DNA of 64,000 nt, taken from contig NZ_FOTS01000015.1 of the NCBI RefSeq assembly GCF_900114615.1, positions 45,971 to 109,970 of the forward strand, written 5' to 3'. Positions within the stretch are counted from its first letter, which is position 1, and each line of letters opens with the position of its first letter. Source of the DNA: Pelosinus propionicus DSM 13327 (GTDB lineage Bacteria; Bacillota; Negativicutes; DSM-13327). Below the pieces are notes generated by a model. It was not told the DNA's origin and did not search any database. It saw nothing but the letters and a program-made list of their open reading frames with translations. A program made the position numbers and the translations under genes. Of this stretch, positions 11,444 through 55,815 are shown piece by piece.

Positions 11444-11483
11444 ACAACCAATAACAGTAAATGCTGTTATTGGTTGTTTTTTT
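11444..11483 (+). terminator. Terminator after thioredoxin gene
   Basis: ACAACCAATAACAG / CTGTTATTGGTTGT, 14 perfect pairs around a TAAATG loop, then a run of T. Confidence 0.92.
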
Positions 11484-11549
11484 GTTCTAATTATATTGCT
11501 GATAGAATAGACAATAGCAACAAAATTTTTAAGATGGGGGACGGAACTA

Positions 11550-12790
11550 TTGACAAAAATGGTTTTAGTTGGTTCGCCTAACGTTGGTAAAAGCGTAATA
11601 TTTAATTACCTGACTGGTCAATATGTGGCAGTATCCAATTATCCAGGAACCACAGTTGATATATCTCGAGGGTATAGCAAAATTAATGGAAAATCATATG
11701 AAATTATTGATACTCCTGGTATGTACTCACTTATCCCCCTTACAGAGGAAGAGCGAGTGTCACGAATGTTATTGTGTCAGGAGCAGCCGGATATTGTACT
11801 AAATGTAATTGATGCTAAAAATATTCGTAGAATGCTGCATCTTACGCTGCAGCTAATTGATATGAATTTCCCGGTCGTATTAGTTGTAAATTTGATAGAT
11901 GAAGCAAAGAAAAATGGTATTTTTTTAAGGCTAGAGTGTTTATCTGACATATTGGGAATTCCAGTTATTGCTACCATTGCCACAAAAGGTCTTGGTCTCG
12001 AAAAGATTAAAGAAGAAGTTCAGGAATATTCCTTTATAAAACCTCGTTTTTCTTTACTATATTCTCCTGATATAGAACAAGCCATTCATTTTATCAGTGA
12101 AAAAATAAACGAAGATTATGGTTTATCGCCCCGCATGGCAGCTTTTTTGCTTATACAAGGTGATAAACGACTGTGTGCATTGGCAAGCCGGAAGGAACAT
12201 GCATTTTCTAAAATTTTAGCAAAAGTAAATGAACTTAAATCTAGTTATCAAAATGATATGGAATACATTATGGCTGTAGAACGGCAGCGGGCGATTGATC
12301 ATATTTGTGACTCCGTTCTGGAAGAAAGAAATCTACATTCGGGAGGAATGGGTGAAACTTTAAGTCGCTTAACTAGGGAACCAATAACTGGAATACCTAT
12401 TTTATGTTTAGTAATATTTTTTGGAATCTATCAATTTGTAGGTAAATTTGGAGCAGGGTTTTTAGTTGAGTATTTAGATATTAATTTCTTTCTTCCTTAT
12501 GCGAACCCTTTAATCGGATACTATGTGTATCAACATATACCCTGGGATTGGTTGCAATCATTGATAATGGGCAAATATGGAGTTTTCACTTTAGGGTTTC
12601 GTTATGCATTTATTATTATTTTACCAATCGTTAGCACTTTTTTCTTTATGTTTGCGATTTTAGAAGATAGTGGATATTTACCTCGATTAGCCATGTTAAT
12701 GGATTGTATATTTAAAAGAATTGGACTAAATGGTAGAGCTGTTATTCCTTTTGCTTTGGGATTAGGGTGTGGCACAATGGCAGTTATGGT
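11550..12790 (+). pseudogene. feoB: Ferrous iron transporter B, 5' part (split by element)
   Basis: FeoB takes up Fe(II) across the inner membrane with a cytosolic GTPase domain. This half holds the G1 motif GSPNVGKS (8-15), the G3 motif DTPG, the helical spacer domain, and the first membrane segments up to GLGCGTMAVMV. TTG start with GGGGGA 9-14 bases upstream. The coding sequence then meets foreign DNA and reads only five more codons (stop at 12806). Without the inserted element it would continue in frame at 15776. As it stands the membrane part is incomplete, so Fe(II) uptake by this copy is doubtful. Confidence 0.92.
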
Positions 12791-12821
12791 GAGAAGTAAA
12801 AGATAAAACGTCTATAGAAGT

Positions 12822-14267
12822 TTATATTTTAATGCTGATCTTCATTGGTATCATGCGATGATCAATGTAGAATTTCCAACCCAGCTTTTCAATAATAGTT
12901 CGCCGTTCAATAAAAGACCTTGCGGCAAAAAAAGCTTCAAGATCTATTTGTGTAGTAGGATTAGAAGAGAGTTTGGTAAGAGAATCGGATATTCTTTGAA
13001 GATCTTCTTTTAAACGATTAAGCTCTTTTTCTGCATCCTTAGAAGTTAGCATTCCTTCATTAAACCACCGAAGGATTGTTGTCCGCTTCTTTTTTAATTC
13101 ACTTTGATGATTTTGAATAACTTTTATTTTATCAGTCTTAGACGTAGCTTCATTTGGAAAGGAAATTAAACATTGTTGTTTATTATTCTTTATAATTGCA
13201 CAGAGATGTTTCCATACGATTTCATCGATCTCAAGTGATGAGATCGATGGGTTGCCACATGGGGCTAGCGATAGATCACTACCTCCTGAGTTACATTTAT
13301 ACCAAGTATATTCTTTACCTGAAGAATGTTTCTTAGAATGAGCTGACAAGCTATAACCGCAGACTGAACATTTAAGGAAGTTGCGCAGTAGATATTCATG
13401 TTTTGTGTTACGAGGGCTTTTACGTTTGTTTTCAGTTAAGATTTGTCTTACTTTTTGAAATTGATCAATTGTTACAATCGGAGAAATAGGGATTGGAATC
13501 CAATCTTCTTTTGGTCGCGCTATCCTTTTACGTTTATATTGACTGATCTTTTTTTCATATTTATTAAAAGACCATTTAGTGCCAGCATATTTTTCATCTG
13601 TTAAGATTCGATAAATCATTGATAGAGTAAAGGGTTTACCCTGCTGGTTCGTAATATTTTGTTGACGAAGAAAAATCGCGATTTCTTTAATTGTAACTTT
13701 TTTACTAAGATACAATTCATAAATCATATGTACGACTGCAGCTTCAGTTTGGTTGATACTATACGTACTATTTACATCATCCCAGTCGTAACCATAGGCG
13801 CGAGTTTTCTGGATCATCTTACCACTTCGTGCTTTGGCACGTTTACCACGTAGAGTACGTTCACGAATTTTAGCTTTTTCAAAAGCACTGATCGCACCAC
13901 GGATCGAAAAGAATAAGCGTCCTTCTGGTGAAGCATCGTAGCTGCCAGTTACAAAATATAGTTTTGTATTCAATTTTTCAATTTCATCAGCCAATAGTAA
14001 TTGATTTGTTAGGTTGCGGCTAAGGCGATCGGGATCATAAACAATGACATTCGTAATTTTTTTATTATGCAGATCATCTCTTAAACGGTCAAGGGCGGGC
14101 CTTTCTAAATACTCACCGCTATAGCCATCATCAATATATTCTGAGCAGCTTGAGGTTTCCAAGCCTAGTTTGGCAGCATGCTCATGGCAAGTGCGAATTT
14201 GGTCACTAATTGAATAACCTATTTCCGCTTGAAGCTCTGTGCTTACACGGCAGTAAATCGCATTCAT
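12822..14267 (-). CDS. SpoIVCA-like serine site-specific recombinase
   Basis: 481 aa. N-terminal resolvase domain with the catalytic Ser9 in YCRVST and the YDPDRLSRNLTNQ motif near residue 80, then a recombinase domain, a zinc ribbon (CSVCGYSL then paired Cys), and a coiled coil near the C-terminus. The catalytic domain is strikingly like Bacillus SpoIVCA, which excises the skin element from sigK. It should catalyse integration and excision of this element. GGGAGG 7 bases before the ATG. It is a clear paralogue of the recombinase at 42224. Confidence 0.93.
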   Translation of the reverse strand: MNAIYCRVSTELQAEIGYSISDQIRTCHEHAAKLGLETSSCSEYIDDGYSGEYLERPALDRLRDDLHNKKITNVIVYDPDRLSRNLTNQLLLADEIEKLNTKLYFVTGSYDASPEGRLFFSIRGAISAFEKAKIRERTLRGKRAKARSGKMIQKTRAYGYDWDDVNSTYSINQTEAAVVHMIYELYLSKKVTIKEIAIFLRQQNITNQQGKPFTLSMIYRILTDEKYAGTKWSFNKYEKKISQYKRKRIARPKEDWIPIPISPIVTIDQFQKVRQILTENKRKSPRNTKHEYLLRNFLKCSVCGYSLSAHSKKHSSGKEYTWYKCNSGGSDLSLAPCGNPSISSLEIDEIVWKHLCAIIKNNKQQCLISFPNEATSKTDKIKVIQNHQSELKKKRTTILRWFNEGMLTSKDAEKELNRLKEDLQRISDSLTKLSSNPTTQIDLEAFFAARSFIERRTIIEKLGWKFYIDHRMIPMKISIKI

Positions 14268-14487
14268 TGCAGCCTCCCGAAGAAAAAAATTTATAAAAAT
14301 ATCTTATGAGGTTAAAGGAATTTGTATTTTTTTGTAGGGCATAAAAGGAAATCATAAATTAAAATAGAAAATAATTAATAGTGATATCGTTAAGTAAAGC
14401 ATTATTCTTGCATAAAGTTGATAGTTATTACTCTATAAGTTATATTTTTGTGGGAATAAGAAAATATACATATGGGAGGAGCGTTTT

Positions 14488-15348
14488 ATGTTAAAAAAAA
14501 GAAAATTATTAATAGACAAACTTAAGAAGTATATCATGCTTTTTATCGGATCTATCTTTACCGCTGTAGGACTAGAAGAATTCTTGGTTCCCAATCAAAT
14601 CATTGATGGTGGTATTGTTGGCATATCAATTATGGCAAGTCATTTAACTTCGATGCCTTTAAGTGTATTTTTAGTACTGCTAAACTTACCTTTTATATAT
14701 TTAGGCTATACACAAATTGGAAAGACATTTGCTATATCAACTATTTTTTCCATATTTTCTTTGGCCTATTGGGTTTCCATTTTTCATCCTATATCAGAAG
14801 TTACAAGAGATCCATTTTTATCAGCTGTTTTTGGTGGAATTATTATTGGAATTGGCGTTGGCTTAATCATTCGATATGGTGGATCTTTAGATGGTACTGA
14901 AATTGTTGCTATTATTTTAGATAAGAAGACCGGGTTTTCTATAGGTGAAATCGTCATGTTTTTTAATATTTTTATTTTAGCTAGTGCAGGGTTTATTTTT
15001 AGCTGGGATAAAGCAATGTACTCTTTGGTGGCCTATTTCATTGCTTTTAAGGTTATAGACATAACCATTGAAGGATTAGATGAGTCAAAAGGTATCCTGA
15101 TTGTTTCGGATAATCCAGATGAAATAGCTGACGCGCTAATGGCTCGTTTAGGGAGGGGCGTGACCATTCTTCATGGTGAAGGCGGATATTCAGGTGATTA
15201 TAAAAAAATTCTTTACTCTGTTCTTACTCGGCTTGAAATTGCTAAGCTTAAAGCGATTGTAAAGGAAAAGGACGAAAATGCTTTCATTACAATAACAGAT
15301 GTACATGATGCGATGGGCGGTAGAGTAAAGAAAAAAGCAATACATTAG
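14488..15348 (+). CDS. YitT/DUF161 family membrane protein with DUF2179 domain
   Basis: 286 aa with about five or six membrane segments (roughly residues 15-190). The FLVPNQIIDGGIVGISI and GGSLDGTEIVA repeats match the YitT family, and a C-terminal cytosolic DUF2179 domain (about 200-280) ends TDVHDAMGG. Function in the cell is not established. It is the cargo of the feoB element. GGGAGGAG 8 bases before the start. TTGCAT near 14411 could belong to its promoter. Confidence 0.88.
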   Translation: MLKKRKLLIDKLKKYIMLFIGSIFTAVGLEEFLVPNQIIDGGIVGISIMASHLTSMPLSVFLVLLNLPFIYLGYTQIGKTFAISTIFSIFSLAYWVSIFHPISEVTRDPFLSAVFGGIIIGIGVGLIIRYGGSLDGTEIVAIILDKKTGFSIGEIVMFFNIFILASAGFIFSWDKAMYSLVAYFIAFKVIDITIEGLDESKGILIVSDNPDEIADALMARLGRGVTILHGEGGYSGDYKKILYSVLTRLEIAKLKAIVKEKDENAFITITDVHDAMGGRVKKKAIH

Positions 15349-15405
15349 TAAGAATTTTATTGTCACAACAAATATATATTAGATTGTGTGATTAAATATA
15401 CTTGT

Positions 15406-15479
15406 AAGACTTATGTTGAAAAGGAAGAGACAGCTACAAGAACTGTCTCTTCCTTTTCAACATAAGTCTTAATTTTTTA
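15406..15479 (+). terminator. Very long perfect hairpin after the yitT-like gene
   Basis: 28-bp perfect arms (15406-15433 and 15443-15470) around a 9-base loop, then AATTTTTTAG. Much longer than a typical terminator stem. Confidence 0.88.
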
Positions 15480-15555
15480 GACTACATTTATAATGTTTTC
15501 ACAAATTATTAATATTAGACAAGGAGAGAGCATATACCCTAGGGGGGGAATGAAA

Positions 15556-15681
15556 ATGGAGGTTGTTTTTGAATATGAATTCGATGGTATTGAGTATCCG
15601 GAAGATAATCCACCACCAAAGCTCATTAATGATTTACTAGATGTTTTAGAGCCTTTTCTGCAACTGAATCAAGCCGAGTAA
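15556..15681 (+). CDS. Small acidic ORF in the feoB element
   Basis: 41 aa starting MEVVFEYEFDG, rich in Asp and Glu and in the PPP segment; no recognisable family. The ATG at 15556 has a G-rich Shine-Dalgarno sequence (15542-15548) 7 bases upstream; the in-frame ATG at 15550 is too close to it. Its stop is 94 bases from the right end of the element. Its size and place would fit an accessory factor of the recombinase, but nothing in the sequence proves this. Confidence 0.5.
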   Translation: MEVVFEYEFDGIEYPEDNPPPKLINDLLDVLEPFLQLNQAE

Positions 15682-15775
15682 TATCGGCTGATATGTTATA
15701 AATGGACAAGTAGTAGGTAGTGGAGAGTAAAGGTTTCGTTATGATATTAAATATATTTTGTATGTTACGTGTGGT

Positions 15776-16469
15776 AACGCGAACATTGGAAACACGCCGC
15801 GAAAGAATATTAGCTACGTTCTTATTGTCTTTGACCATACCTTGTTCGGCACAGCTTGGTGTTATCTTGGCGTTATTGTCGGATTCATTTTTATCTCTAA
15901 CGATATGGGGCTGTTATATCCTTCTCATTTTTGGAATCATTGGAAGGTTGTCAGGAAGTTTTCTTCCTGGCAACTCTAGTTCATTTTATATGGAAATACC
16001 ACCTTTGCGCCTGCCAATTTTATCAAATGTATTACAGAAGGCTTTTATTCGGATGTGGTGGTATTTTATAGAAATCCTGCCGATTTTTATAATGACGAGT
16101 GTTATTTTGTGGCTTGGTGATCGAACTGGTATTTTAAGTGATATTATATATTCTCTACAACCGACCATGAGTCTGCTGGGTTTGCCAATAGAAACAGCCC
16201 AGCCATTTCTGTTAGGCTTCTTTCGTAGAGATTATGGTGCTGCTGGATTGTATGAAATGGCTGCAAATCAAAGTTTAAGTAAAGAGCAACTTTTAATTGC
16301 AAGTGCAACACTGACCTTATTTGTACCATGTGTTGCACAAGTAGCCGTAATGATAAAAGAACGAGGGATATTCATCTCAATGGTAATATTATGTAGTATA
16401 ATTGTCTTTGCTTTTGTGGGAGGTTTATTGCTTTCGAAATTATTGCCTATTCTTAATTTGTATCTATAG
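15776..16469 (+). pseudogene. feoB: Ferrous iron transporter B, 3' part
   Basis: Homologous segment begins at the T-R-T-L-E-T-R-R-E-R sequence that in FeoB directly follows the GC-TMA-MV core. It carries the remaining membrane helices, including the conserved PCSAQLGV stretch and FLLGFFRRDYGAAGL. No stop codons or frameshifts have accumulated, arguing for recent insertion or for excision that still occurs. A GTG at 15720 inside the element gives an open 249-codon frame, but the first 19 of those codons are not FeoB. Confidence 0.9.
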
Positions 16470-16504
16470 AAATATTCATGAATGTCATAAAGGGAGTGAA
16501 AAGT

Positions 16505-16732
16505 ATGGCTCACCTGATGCCAATTGTTAGATGCAAAAAGAATACGACTGTACATGTTGTACGTCTATTATTAACAAGTGGAGAGAATCTGCGCAAACTA
16601 ACAGCTTTTGGGTTGTTGCCTGGGGTAAAAATAGAAATTTTGCAAACATATCCTGTCTATGTATTAAAAATAGGATACACACAAATTGCTTTAGATTATG
16701 AAATAGCAAAAAATATTATTGTTGTCCTATAA
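16505..16732 (+). CDS. feoA: FeoA-domain protein
   Basis: 75 aa SH3-like FeoA domain, cytoplasmic partner of FeoB in Fe(II) uptake. LRKLTAFGLLPGVKIEI is the family core. Start at 16505 chosen because GGGAG lies 9 bases upstream; an upstream in-frame ATG (16478) has no ribosome site. It follows feoB rather than preceding it, the reverse of the usual order. With feoB split, its transcription may be affected. Confidence 0.85.
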   Translation: MAHLMPIVRCKKNTTVHVVRLLLTSGENLRKLTAFGLLPGVKIEILQTYPVYVLKIGYTQIALDYEIAKNIIVVL

Positions 16733-41401: not shown

Positions 41402-41423
41402 AGGAATAGAGGGGAATTTGATT

Positions 41424-42026
41424 GTGAAATACAATAAGTTATGGGGAAGAAGTTTACTGATTGTACTTTTGGTTGCTGTTGGTTGGGGATTCTTGCTTTA
41501 TTATGGTCAAGAGAATTTACCCGTTTCCCTCGGCAAAGAAAATCTAATACGTCTACATGTGTTAGCAAATAGTGATAGTGAATCTGATCAGCAGTTAAAG
41601 TTAAAAGTGCGTGATGCTGTTATTGCCTATCTAGCACCGTACTTGGAAACTGCGATTGATAAAGAAATGGCAAAGCAGGTTGTATTGGAGCACCAGAACG
41701 AACTTACTGCTGTGGCGGAAAAGGTCGTAGCAATGAATGGATCTCATGAGTCGGTAGAGATAGAGTTAGGTATGTTTGACTTTCCTATAAAGTCATATGG
41801 TAATTTGGTATTGCCGGCTGGAAAATATGAAGCGGTGCGAGTACTTATCGGGAAGGCAGAAGGTAAAAATTGGTGGTGCGTATTATTTCCTCCTCTTTGT
41901 TTTATTGACATTACTAACGCGACTGCACTGACGCCTAAAGAAGTTAATAGCGATGCAGCGCAGAAGGACGAAAAAGTTGAATTTCGCTGGAAATTAGCTG
42001 AACTTTGGAAAGATGGGCTAAAGTGA
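41424..42026 (+). CDS. spoIIR: Stage II sporulation protein R
   Basis: Secreted from the forespore; triggers SpoIIGA to process pro-SigE, so its partner genes are 2 kb upstream. Signal-like membrane helix (about 10-28), then the conserved IRLHVLANSDSESDQQLKLKVRD and the WWCVLFPPLCF motif near residue 150. GTG 41424 has AGGGGA 9 bases upstream; TTG 41418 is too close. 200 aa, complete. Confidence 0.93.
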   Translation: MKYNKLWGRSLLIVLLVAVGWGFLLYYGQENLPVSLGKENLIRLHVLANSDSESDQQLKLKVRDAVIAYLAPYLETAIDKEMAKQVVLEHQNELTAVAEKVVAMNGSHESVEIELGMFDFPIKSYGNLVLPAGKYEAVRVLIGKAEGKNWWCVLFPPLCFIDITNATALTPKEVNSDAAQKDEKVEFRWKLAELWKDGLK

Positions 42027-42223: not shown

Positions 42224-43696
42224 TTATTTTTCAAGGTAAAATTCGAAAGAATCATTAAGTCTTACTGCAAAAATGCGATAAGATAGTTTAAGTAATACAT
42301 TGCGTTTTTCTGCAAAGGTTTTAACTGTGATTAAATCAGTTGGTGATGTTGCCAGCTGATTTGTTTTTTCTTGGATAGTTGTCAGCTCAGATATATCAAG
42401 TCGAATAGTAGCTAGTTCTTTATTTAGATTCCGCAATTCTCTTTCTACTGTTTCGCTATCAATCAAATTCTCCTGGTACCAACGCAGGGTATTATTTTTC
42501 TTCTTTTGTAGCTTAATTTGGCGAGTATGTAAATTTGTTATTTGTTCTGAATAGCTAATGTTGGCGTTGGTTCGTATGTATTCTTGTAAATGATCTTTAG
42601 AAGTTGCCAGCGTTACGAGGCATTGCCAGACAGCCTGTTCTAAATCTTCTACGGGTATTCGACGGCACTGGCAAGAGGTGCCATTGGCAGTATAAGTATT
42701 TGATTCTTTGGAAATACAGGAATAATAATAGTAAATTTTATCACTACCATTTTTTCGTTTAGCAGGACGAGAATAGGCTGTCATGGAACGTCCGCAGAGA
42801 GCACAGTGTAACAGTCCTCGTAAAAGATAATTATGTTTATTATTGCGTGTTGCCAATTTCTTATTTTGTTGGATCTGCAATTGGGCAGATTCCCACATTT
42901 CACGAGTGACTATAGCAGGAATTATAACGGGAATCCAAGATTCAGGAGGATTATCTTTAACTTCGCGGCTATTTTGACCAGTTTTACAAGTTCGTTGCTT
43001 AAAAAGGTAGTGCTGTCCATAATACATTTCTTTAGTAAGAATGCGTGAGACAGTGCAGATCGAGAGAGGACGATTATTTTTGCCTACAATACCAAGGCGT
43101 GCTAACTCTAAGGAAATCCTCCTTGAACCATAGCCCTGATGAATGCATAAATGATAAATGAATTGAATGGTTTTACTTTCCTCTTCGTTGATAACATACA
43201 TACTATTCTTTTTGTCCCAGTCATAACCAAAGGGGTGGGCATTGGAAATGATTTTTCCTTGATGTGCTTTTGCTCGGCGACCGCGGGAAGTTCTTTCACG
43301 AATTTTGGATTTTTCATAAGCCGAAATAGCGCCTTTCATACTGAAGAATAAGCGGCCTTCTGGTGAGGAATCATAATCGCCAGTAACAAAAGTAATTTTG
43401 GCACCTGTCTTTTCTATTTCTTCAGCTATAATCAATTGATTGGTAAGATTACGGGAAAGACGATCGGGATCATAAATAGCTACGATTTTTATGATCCCAT
43501 TTTGTAAATCATTTCGTAGTTTATCTAGGGCAGGGCGCTCTAAATATTCTCCGCTATAACCATCGTCAACATATTCTTTTATCCCAGTGTGATCGATCGC
43601 TAATAAATGATTGCGACAGGCAGCAATTTGGTCTTTTAAAGAATACCCCTTGCGGGCTTGGTCATCTGTTGACACCCTCACATATAGCGCATTCAT
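42224..43696 (-). CDS. Second SpoIVCA-like serine recombinase
   Basis: 490 aa, same architecture as the recombinase at 12822: Ser9 in YVRVST, YDPDRLSRNLTNQL, RGAISAYEKSKIRERT-type text, a zinc ribbon (CALCGRSM with a later CQCRR) and a C-terminal coiled coil. I set the start at 43696, because GGAGG ends 5 bases before it; the ATG at 43708 contains that site. No cargo gene is recognisable beside it. May be a remnant of a second element or a solitary recombinase with a distant target. Confidence 0.92.
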   Translation of the reverse strand: MNALYVRVSTDDQARKGYSLKDQIAACRNHLLAIDHTGIKEYVDDGYSGEYLERPALDKLRNDLQNGIIKIVAIYDPDRLSRNLTNQLIIAEEIEKTGAKITFVTGDYDSSPEGRLFFSMKGAISAYEKSKIRERTSRGRRAKAHQGKIISNAHPFGYDWDKKNSMYVINEEESKTIQFIYHLCIHQGYGSRRISLELARLGIVGKNNRPLSICTVSRILTKEMYYGQHYLFKQRTCKTGQNSREVKDNPPESWIPVIIPAIVTREMWESAQLQIQQNKKLATRNNKHNYLLRGLLHCALCGRSMTAYSRPAKRKNGSDKIYYYYSCISKESNTYTANGTSCQCRRIPVEDLEQAVWQCLVTLATSKDHLQEYIRTNANISYSEQITNLHTRQIKLQKKKNNTLRWYQENLIDSETVERELRNLNKELATIRLDISELTTIQEKTNQLATSPTDLITVKTFAEKRNVLLKLSYRIFAVRLNDSFEFYLEK

Positions 43697-43750
43697 AAAA
43701 TCCTCCATTATTATTGAGTGTTATCTATTTTATGTGAGGATAAAAGAAAA

Positions 43751-55559: not shown

Positions 55560-55815
55560 TATTGTGGAATGTTAATATGAATACAAGTGATGATGGAGAC
55601 AGTAGCTAAAAAACTGATTTTACAGCGAGTTGGGAATAGTGGGAGCCTAATAATCAAGTTTAGTGAAGATCACTCCTGAACTGCAAACTGAAATACAGTA
55701 AGATTTGCCGTTTAACGAGCGTTATATCGTTACTAAAGTGGCTGGAAAGTCATTAGGGTGGTACCACGGGAAACAACCTCTCGTCCCTTTAGGGATGAAG
55801 AGGTTTTATTTTTTT
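55560..55815 (+). promoter_or_regulatory. T-box leader of ileS
   Basis: The T-box sequence AGGGTGGTACCACGGG is at 55755-55770, followed by a terminator hairpin (AACCTC-TCGTCCC / GGGATGA-AGAGGTT, then a T-run). Upstream lies a long stem I region; the specifier is probably ATC at 55669-55671, an isoleucine codon, which agrees with ileS downstream. Uncharged tRNA-Ile should bind and prevent termination. Confidence 0.9.

Follow-up and report, generated by a model that had tools for sequence, protein, structure and literature searches.

In Bacillus subtilis, sprA and the 58-amino-acid (aa) product of sprB alone suffice for the excision of SPbeta from spsM, and the mother-cell promoter that transcribes sprB combines a perfect -10 region with an imperfect -35 region (PMC4191935). 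The skin element of C. difficile has a 72-aa recombination directionality factor (RDF) controlled by sigma-E and SpoIIID, together with a constitutively expressed recombinase (PMC5025042). In B. cereus ATCC10987, gerE contains gin, a non-phage element that uses the serine recombinase GirC and the factor GirX and whose excision reconstitutes the gene in frame; the intervening elements of spore formers described in the same source are located in sporulation-related genes (PMC5595907). In heterocyst-forming cyanobacteria, interruption elements from about 1 kb upward, most of them of the serine-recombinase type, split metabolic genes (fdxN, nifD, hupL and others) and are excised in the differentiated cell (PMC4874684). 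Here we describe an element of 2,985 bp that splits the iron-transporter gene feoB in a 64,000-nucleotide stretch of the Pelosinus propionicus DSM 13327 genome (contig NZ_FOTS01000015.1, positions 45,971 to 109,970; hereafter the window, whose own numbering is used throughout). This element is probably excised by its own recombinase, which would rejoin feoB in frame, the probable site of the event being the spore mother cell. The genome holding the window (contig C34) is denoted G000, and the seven other Pelosinus genomes examined are denoted G001-G007.

The split feoB gene and its recombination sites

The N-terminal half of feoB (N-half) starts with a TTG codon at 11550 and extends on the forward strand to 12788 (413 codons), encoding the G domain, the cytosolic domain and the first part of the Gate domain as identified by Pfam and NCBIfam; its open reading frame (ORF) continues past the junction with VRSKR and a stop codon, ending at 12806. 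Beyond the element (12789-15773), the C-terminal half (C-half; 15774-16469, forward strand, 231 codons) is followed by feoA (16478-16732, forward strand, PF04023), the downstream gene of the split operon. The split point is inside the first Gate domain of the Pfam annotation. A preliminary description of this locus had reported two intact open halves whose joining restores a 644-aa FeoB in frame, and this was reproduced: the halves joined by script give 644 aa without a stop, read MAVM followed by VTRTLETRRER at the joint and stay in register with intact orthologs, and the TIGR00437 (feoB) model runs from 373 to 374 across the joint without a gap. Developmentally excised gene-intervening elements such as skin, SPbeta and gin divide a host gene into open parts that read in frame once joined, and the feoB element shares this feature.

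Comparison of seven elements (described below) with six intact orthologs places attL at 12771-12808, with the crossover core GT at 12789-12790, and comparison of the junctions places attR at 15756-15793, with the core GT at 15774-15775. The TGGT noted earlier at both junctions is present in the window, but across all seven elements GT is the sole sequence common to both ends. When the ends of the element are rejoined, the attP-like sequence forms an inverted repeat around this GT with 12-13 of 18 arm positions matching, a symmetry score that just 0.03-0.17% of the other positions in each element reach; attB shows lower symmetry, with 5 of 18 positions matching in six genomes and 9 of 18 in G002. 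Serine recombinases usually have an attP that is symmetric about the central dinucleotide (PMC5595907). The predicted large serine recombinase of the element (12822-14267, reverse strand, 481 aa) adjoins the att sites, as expected for this class of elements, its stop codon being 33 bp from the N-half junction. It contains Resolvase, Recombinase and Zn ribbon domains and matches a PHROG integrase at 3.5e-99. Among solved structures its best sequence match is the N-terminal domain of the TP901-1 integrase (E 1e-20), and YokA/SprA of SPbeta is matched with E 1.9e-8. Against the NCBIfam model for XisF of the fdxN element it scores 102 bits, which is under the cut-off of 375 bits and does not make it a member of that family.

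The pattern of selection was determined from the ratio of non-synonymous to synonymous substitution rates (dN/dS). Over nine pairs of element-bearing genomes the N-half has a ratio of 0.11-0.18 and the C-half one of 0.05-0.16, no stop is present in either half, and two pairs that include the intact gene of G003 give similar values (0.12-0.18 and 0.13-0.18, respectively). A gene that is broken in the assemblies of seven species and yet under selection is best explained by the existence of cells that hold the whole gene. It could also be imagined that the two halves are translated separately, that FeoB works as a split protein and that the element is a fixed, harmless insertion. In agreement with this idea, an in-frame ATG occurs a few codons before the C-half in G000, G001, G004 and G007, and both TTG and GTG occur there in G002; in G005 and G006, however, the stretch from the preceding stop to the joint lacks ATG, GTG and TTG alike, and the earliest such codon is a TTG five codons into the C-half. 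Since no start codon of the C-half is conserved across the element-bearing genomes, a split but functional FeoB is disfavored, and with the cut falling within the Gate domain and feoB having reverted to one gene in G003, we consider it most improbable.

Distribution in Pelosinus and apparent loss in G003

When 60 genomes, G000 among them, were searched for the recombinase, close orthologs (68-87% identity) were detected in G001, G002, G004, G005, G006 and G007 and an ortholog of 61% identity in G046, a genome from another family, whereas G003 had no recombinase above 49%. In seven of the eight Pelosinus genomes, that is, in all but G003, the recombinase, yitT and an ORF of 41-45 aa are situated at residue 413 of feoB, at the same base; the gene order is alike in all seven elements and their lengths are 2,940-3,141 bp, with a run of N counted in the G004 element. 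When 380 genomes of the class were searched with the N-half, 45 had a match at E <= 1e-80: eight are split (the seven Pelosinus genomes and G046), two are ended by contig ends (G031 and G304), and 35 are long open frames of 646-712 codons. In G003, feoB is uninterrupted, has 644 codons and shows the same codons at the joint, and the element yitT is absent, the best match being a paralog with 73% identity. Comparison of sister genomes had been proposed as a check in the preliminary description, with disabled feoB copies in element-free relatives counting against regulated excision; the split turned out to be at the identical base in seven of eight genomes, a recurrence that goes beyond chance, and the copy of the element-free G003 is open.

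We then compared the history of the element with that of its surroundings. The flank tree was constructed from eight flanking genes and rooted with G008; G007 was represented only by trx, feoA and pda, and rsmH was omitted from the trees, as well as from those dN/dS calculations in which a stop was present in the G005 copy. The topology of this tree, ((G005,G006),(G002,(G000,(G003,(G007,(G001,G004)))))), places G003 inside the element-bearing clade with bootstrap 100, and the feoB tree is concordant with it (89 at the G003 node). The element tree has both deep splits of the flank tree at 100% and another order among G000, G007 and G001/G004. The pairwise rates of synonymous substitutions (dS) of the recombinase and yitT are broadly equal to those of the neighboring genes: between G000 and G001, the recombinase has a dS of 0.57 and feoB of 0.41-0.51, and between G000 and G002 these values are 1.50 and 1.30-1.41, while dS values between G000 and G005 are close to saturation. 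The G002 assembly may be partially contaminated, because one of its contigs (C215, L162) matches G001 with 100% identity along 291 bp; the contig holding feoB, at 75% identity, is clearly a different sequence.

The simplest reading of these data is that the element was present in the Pelosinus ancestor and was precisely lost in G003, which would make G003 a likely case of natural precise excision. The preliminary description had left a choice between regulated excision and simple recent insertion. The latter is contradicted, because the site is shared to the base by seven of eight genomes and the divergence of the element broadly matches that of its flanks; of the former, the restoration of feoB by excision gains support from the purifying selection seen in the two halves, the natural empty site of G003 and the symmetry of attP.

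The same comparison bears on the view that this is a selfish element, gained recently and independently at the same attB in each lineage, the signs of selection on feoB dating from periods in which the gene was intact. The empty site in G003, the non-identity of the element and flank trees and the situation in G046, where feoB is split at the same codon and the recombinase is 60-61% identical, are all compatible with repeated insertion. However, the deep splits of the element tree match those of the flanks, gene order is uniform, and the dS values of element and flanks are broadly in step in both the G000/G001 and the G000/G002 comparison; the distance to the best phage record likewise argues against repeated insertion, which we regard as very unlikely. 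A phage origin was considered separately and rejected: no relative was found in viral_contigs, and of 50,697 phage records, 643 match, the best with 38% identity over 74% of the recombinase. The element contains only the recombinase, yitT and the small ORF, with no phage structural or lysis genes, and it is not a prophage by its content.

The candidate directionality factor and sister recombinases

The yitT gene (14488-15348, forward strand) encodes a YitT-family membrane protein of 286 aa (PF02588 and PF10035; dN/dS 0.00-0.04 over nine pairs) and is cargo; a long hairpin after it (15405-15471, forward strand, fold z-score -13.1) is a likely terminator. Next comes an acidic ORF of 41 aa (15556-15681, forward strand), which is a candidate RDF. 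A longer, 62-aa reading from 15493 was dropped because this frame has a stop in G004 and the later start, ATG at 15556, is common to all seven elements; the annotated 62-aa frame was also excluded from the dN/dS calculation for G001/G004. The dN/dS ratio of the small ORF is 0.08-0.22 over six pairs (first 35 codons), and a database search returned six clusters, all 78-100% identical.

Upstream of this ORF, AATAT(T/G) and CATATA separated by 13-15 nt form the sole match of this kind that is shared in position by all seven elements; in the window this sigma-E-like promoter reads AATATT-N14-CATATA (15511-15536, forward strand) and has AGACAAG in the spacer. In all seven elements AGCATATA is found upstream of the ORF and the SpoIIID-like box TGGACAAG (15703-15710, forward strand) downstream of it, and the small hairpin at the stop codon (15672-15689, forward strand) has a comparable counterpart in G046. 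In non-coding DNA of the element, the number of 8-mers common to G000, G002 and G005 is 10, compared with a mean of 1.31 and a maximum of 6 in 300 shuffles. The Pelosinus genes spoIIIAA and spoIVA have comparable CATA-type -10 regions, and SpoIIID is encoded in all six genomes searched. The B. subtilis SpoIIID consensus, WWRRACARNY, is taken here as general background, as are the sigma-E hexamers. The SpoIIID box of C. difficile is KRTAACARK (PMC5025042).

Related recombinases are found at sigK. Seven of the eight Pelosinus genomes give two separated matches to this gene, which in G002 fall on different contigs; in G007 it is represented by an incomplete N-part. A recombinase-like ORF of 517-528 aa follows the N-part in all five genomes read (G000, G001, G003, G004 and G005) and in four of them is 23-26% identical to the feoB recombinase by tblastn. 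In G000 and G003, a second element of 2.3-2.4 kb splits the 3' end of sigK; its recombinase is 46-49% identical to that of the feoB element, it also has a small ORF, and its 17-bp direct repeats, identical in G000 and with two differences in G003, are 2,392 and 2,299 bp apart, respectively. The sigK gene of G000 is therefore in three pieces, interrupted by two different elements, and that of G003 likewise (L048:2424-10850, G000 contig C78; also L046, L155-L157 and L160). In G005 and G002 the sigK match ends at the same point, beside recombinases of 42% and 49% identity, respectively; the 3' end is whole in G001 and G004, the aligned G006 sequence also continues past this point, and G001 has relics of the second element downstream.

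The small ORFs beside the sister recombinases resemble the 41-aa ORF chiefly in position, similarity in tblastn being weak (E 0.41 for L046 and 0.087 for L043). In G046, a small ORF (MKDKKIVFKG...) adjoins the recombinase and is preceded by GTGGACAA and GCATAT and followed by TTGGACAA; no yitT is present near this recombinase, the best match being on another contig. The two halves of feoB in this genome are on separate contigs (L043 and L113), and a short repeated stretch occurs near both parts.

We propose that the unexcised chromosome represents the germline state. The serine recombinase of the element would catalyze recombination between the two GT cores, releasing a circle with the recombinase, yitT and the 41-aa ORF and leaving an uninterrupted feoB-feoA operon. 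The 41-aa protein is the predicted directionality factor, and through its sigma-E-like promoter and SpoIIID-like boxes excision would be limited to the mother cell, the element being passed on whole to the spore. It is very probable that a FeoB which is actually used is restored by excision, as indicated by the purifying selection that acts on each half, the element-free feoB of G003 and the symmetry of attP. Timing in the mother cell, with the 41-aa protein as directionality factor, is a step less certain but still somewhat favored, because a sigma-E-like promoter and SpoIIID-like boxes are conserved at the candidate RDF and sister recombinases are present at sigK. More tentatively, and with nearly even chances of being wrong or right, FeoB may be an iron importer of the mother cell only, its gene being silenced in the germline by a 3-kb recombinase cassette that is inherited vertically and excised under sigma-E and SpoIIID by means of the 41-aa factor. 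In this case several programmed DNA excisions would take place in one Pelosinus sporangium, since related cassettes also cut sigK.

Several observations weigh against excision in the mother cell or against its supposed history. The promoter/operator block of feoB itself (11482-11531, forward strand), which contains a TTGCT...AGCAA inverted repeat and is aligned in all eight Pelosinus genomes including G003, has no recognized sporulation-type site, and no regulator was matched to it. G000 has other FeoB-like genes, which bears on the need for the split copy, and to our knowledge feoB has no role in sporulation. In family and database searches the small ORF matches no family and resembles no known RDF. 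Counted in the window alone, the sigma-E-like and SpoIIID-like motifs are no more frequent than chance predicts, so that the case for them is one of cross-species conservation; and of the six 8-mers common to the non-coding DNA of all seven elements four are T-rich runs, the others being the two sequences that flank the small ORF. The flank data reject the internal order preferred by the element tree (approximately unbiased (AU) test, p 0.004), and the element data do not reject the order of the flanks (AU p 0.168). Between G005 and G006 the recombinase dS (0.20) exceeds that of feoB (0.05-0.10). Finally, a joined query of 81 bases was matched end to end only in G003 among the eight genomes, with no excised joint in the others; each of six genomes yielded a pair of half matches, and in G002 nothing reached the threshold.

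Some of these points would suit another use of the same recombinase, which might restore feoB during vegetative growth, either stochastically or when iron is limiting, and so act as a reversible on/off switch unconnected with sporulation. FeoB transports a nutrient, its conserved promoter block is of no recognized sporulation type, and the evidence from the joint and attP fits a switch equally well; yet the conserved promoter and boxes at the candidate RDF, the sister recombinases at sigK and the near-complete assemblies G001 and G006, found only in the unexcised state, speak against it, and we consider vegetative switching unlikely. Excision in the mother cell is the reading that we prefer.

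Further recombinases of this type were observed. In the window, one that is 43% identical to the feoB recombinase (42224-43708) is located directly after spoIIR (41418-42026, complete by Pfam), and several Pelosinus genomes have similar recombinases at a similar distance from feoB. Others are present in G000 (L049:5539-7390), with an adjoining 64-aa ORF preceded by GTTGGAAAAG and CATA, and in G003 (L047:8800-10296), with repetitive collagen-like sequence nearby. The sole Rfam family that reaches the threshold in the window is a T-box leader (55581-55791).

Comparison with known intervening elements

SPbeta in spsM and SPmini, its minimal derivative, resemble the feoB element in combining a serine recombinase with a small accessory protein, and SPbeta excision rebuilds a split host gene (PMC4191935). 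SPbeta, however, is an active prophage in a spore-polysaccharide gene, whereas the feoB element is naturally about 3 kb long, has no phage genes and carries yitT; its small ORF has no detected similarity to a known family. In this comparison the feoB element resembles a naturally occurring form of the SPbeta minimal set. The skin elements in sigK of B. subtilis and C. difficile are likewise large serine recombinase elements that split a gene, and they rejoin it precisely. They differ in size, the B. subtilis element measuring 48 kb (PMC517825) and that of C. difficile comprising 19 genes (PMC5025042) compared with 3 kb here, and in their target, which is a sporulation sigma gene and not an iron-transporter gene. 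The gin element differs in its length of 28.6 kb, its three recombinases and its target, a sporulation regulator (PMC5595907). The cyanobacterial elements belong to another phylum and have other targets and another cell type; the genes they interrupt include an efflux permease, and feoB is absent from the main text of the paper describing them (PMC4874684). Within the open-access literature, to which the search was confined, nothing was found that combines feoB, an intervening element and a recombinase, or Pelosinus with a site-specific recombinase; among the matches listed, the sole paper naming feoB describes it as prophage cargo in Streptococcus suis.

If excision in the mother cell is true, a nutrient transporter of an endospore former would be under the control of developmental DNA rearrangement, and ferrous iron import would be indicated as a task of the mother cell. 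The feoB element may then be seen as a natural minimal excision cassette, consisting of a recombinase and a 41-aa candidate RDF, for which an apparent natural loss is also at hand, and the set of Pelosinus species allows the long-term maintenance of a split gene to be measured. In summary, what is new relative to the known gene-intervening elements is the very small size of the element, its location in a metal-transporter gene and its occurrence in Negativicutes.

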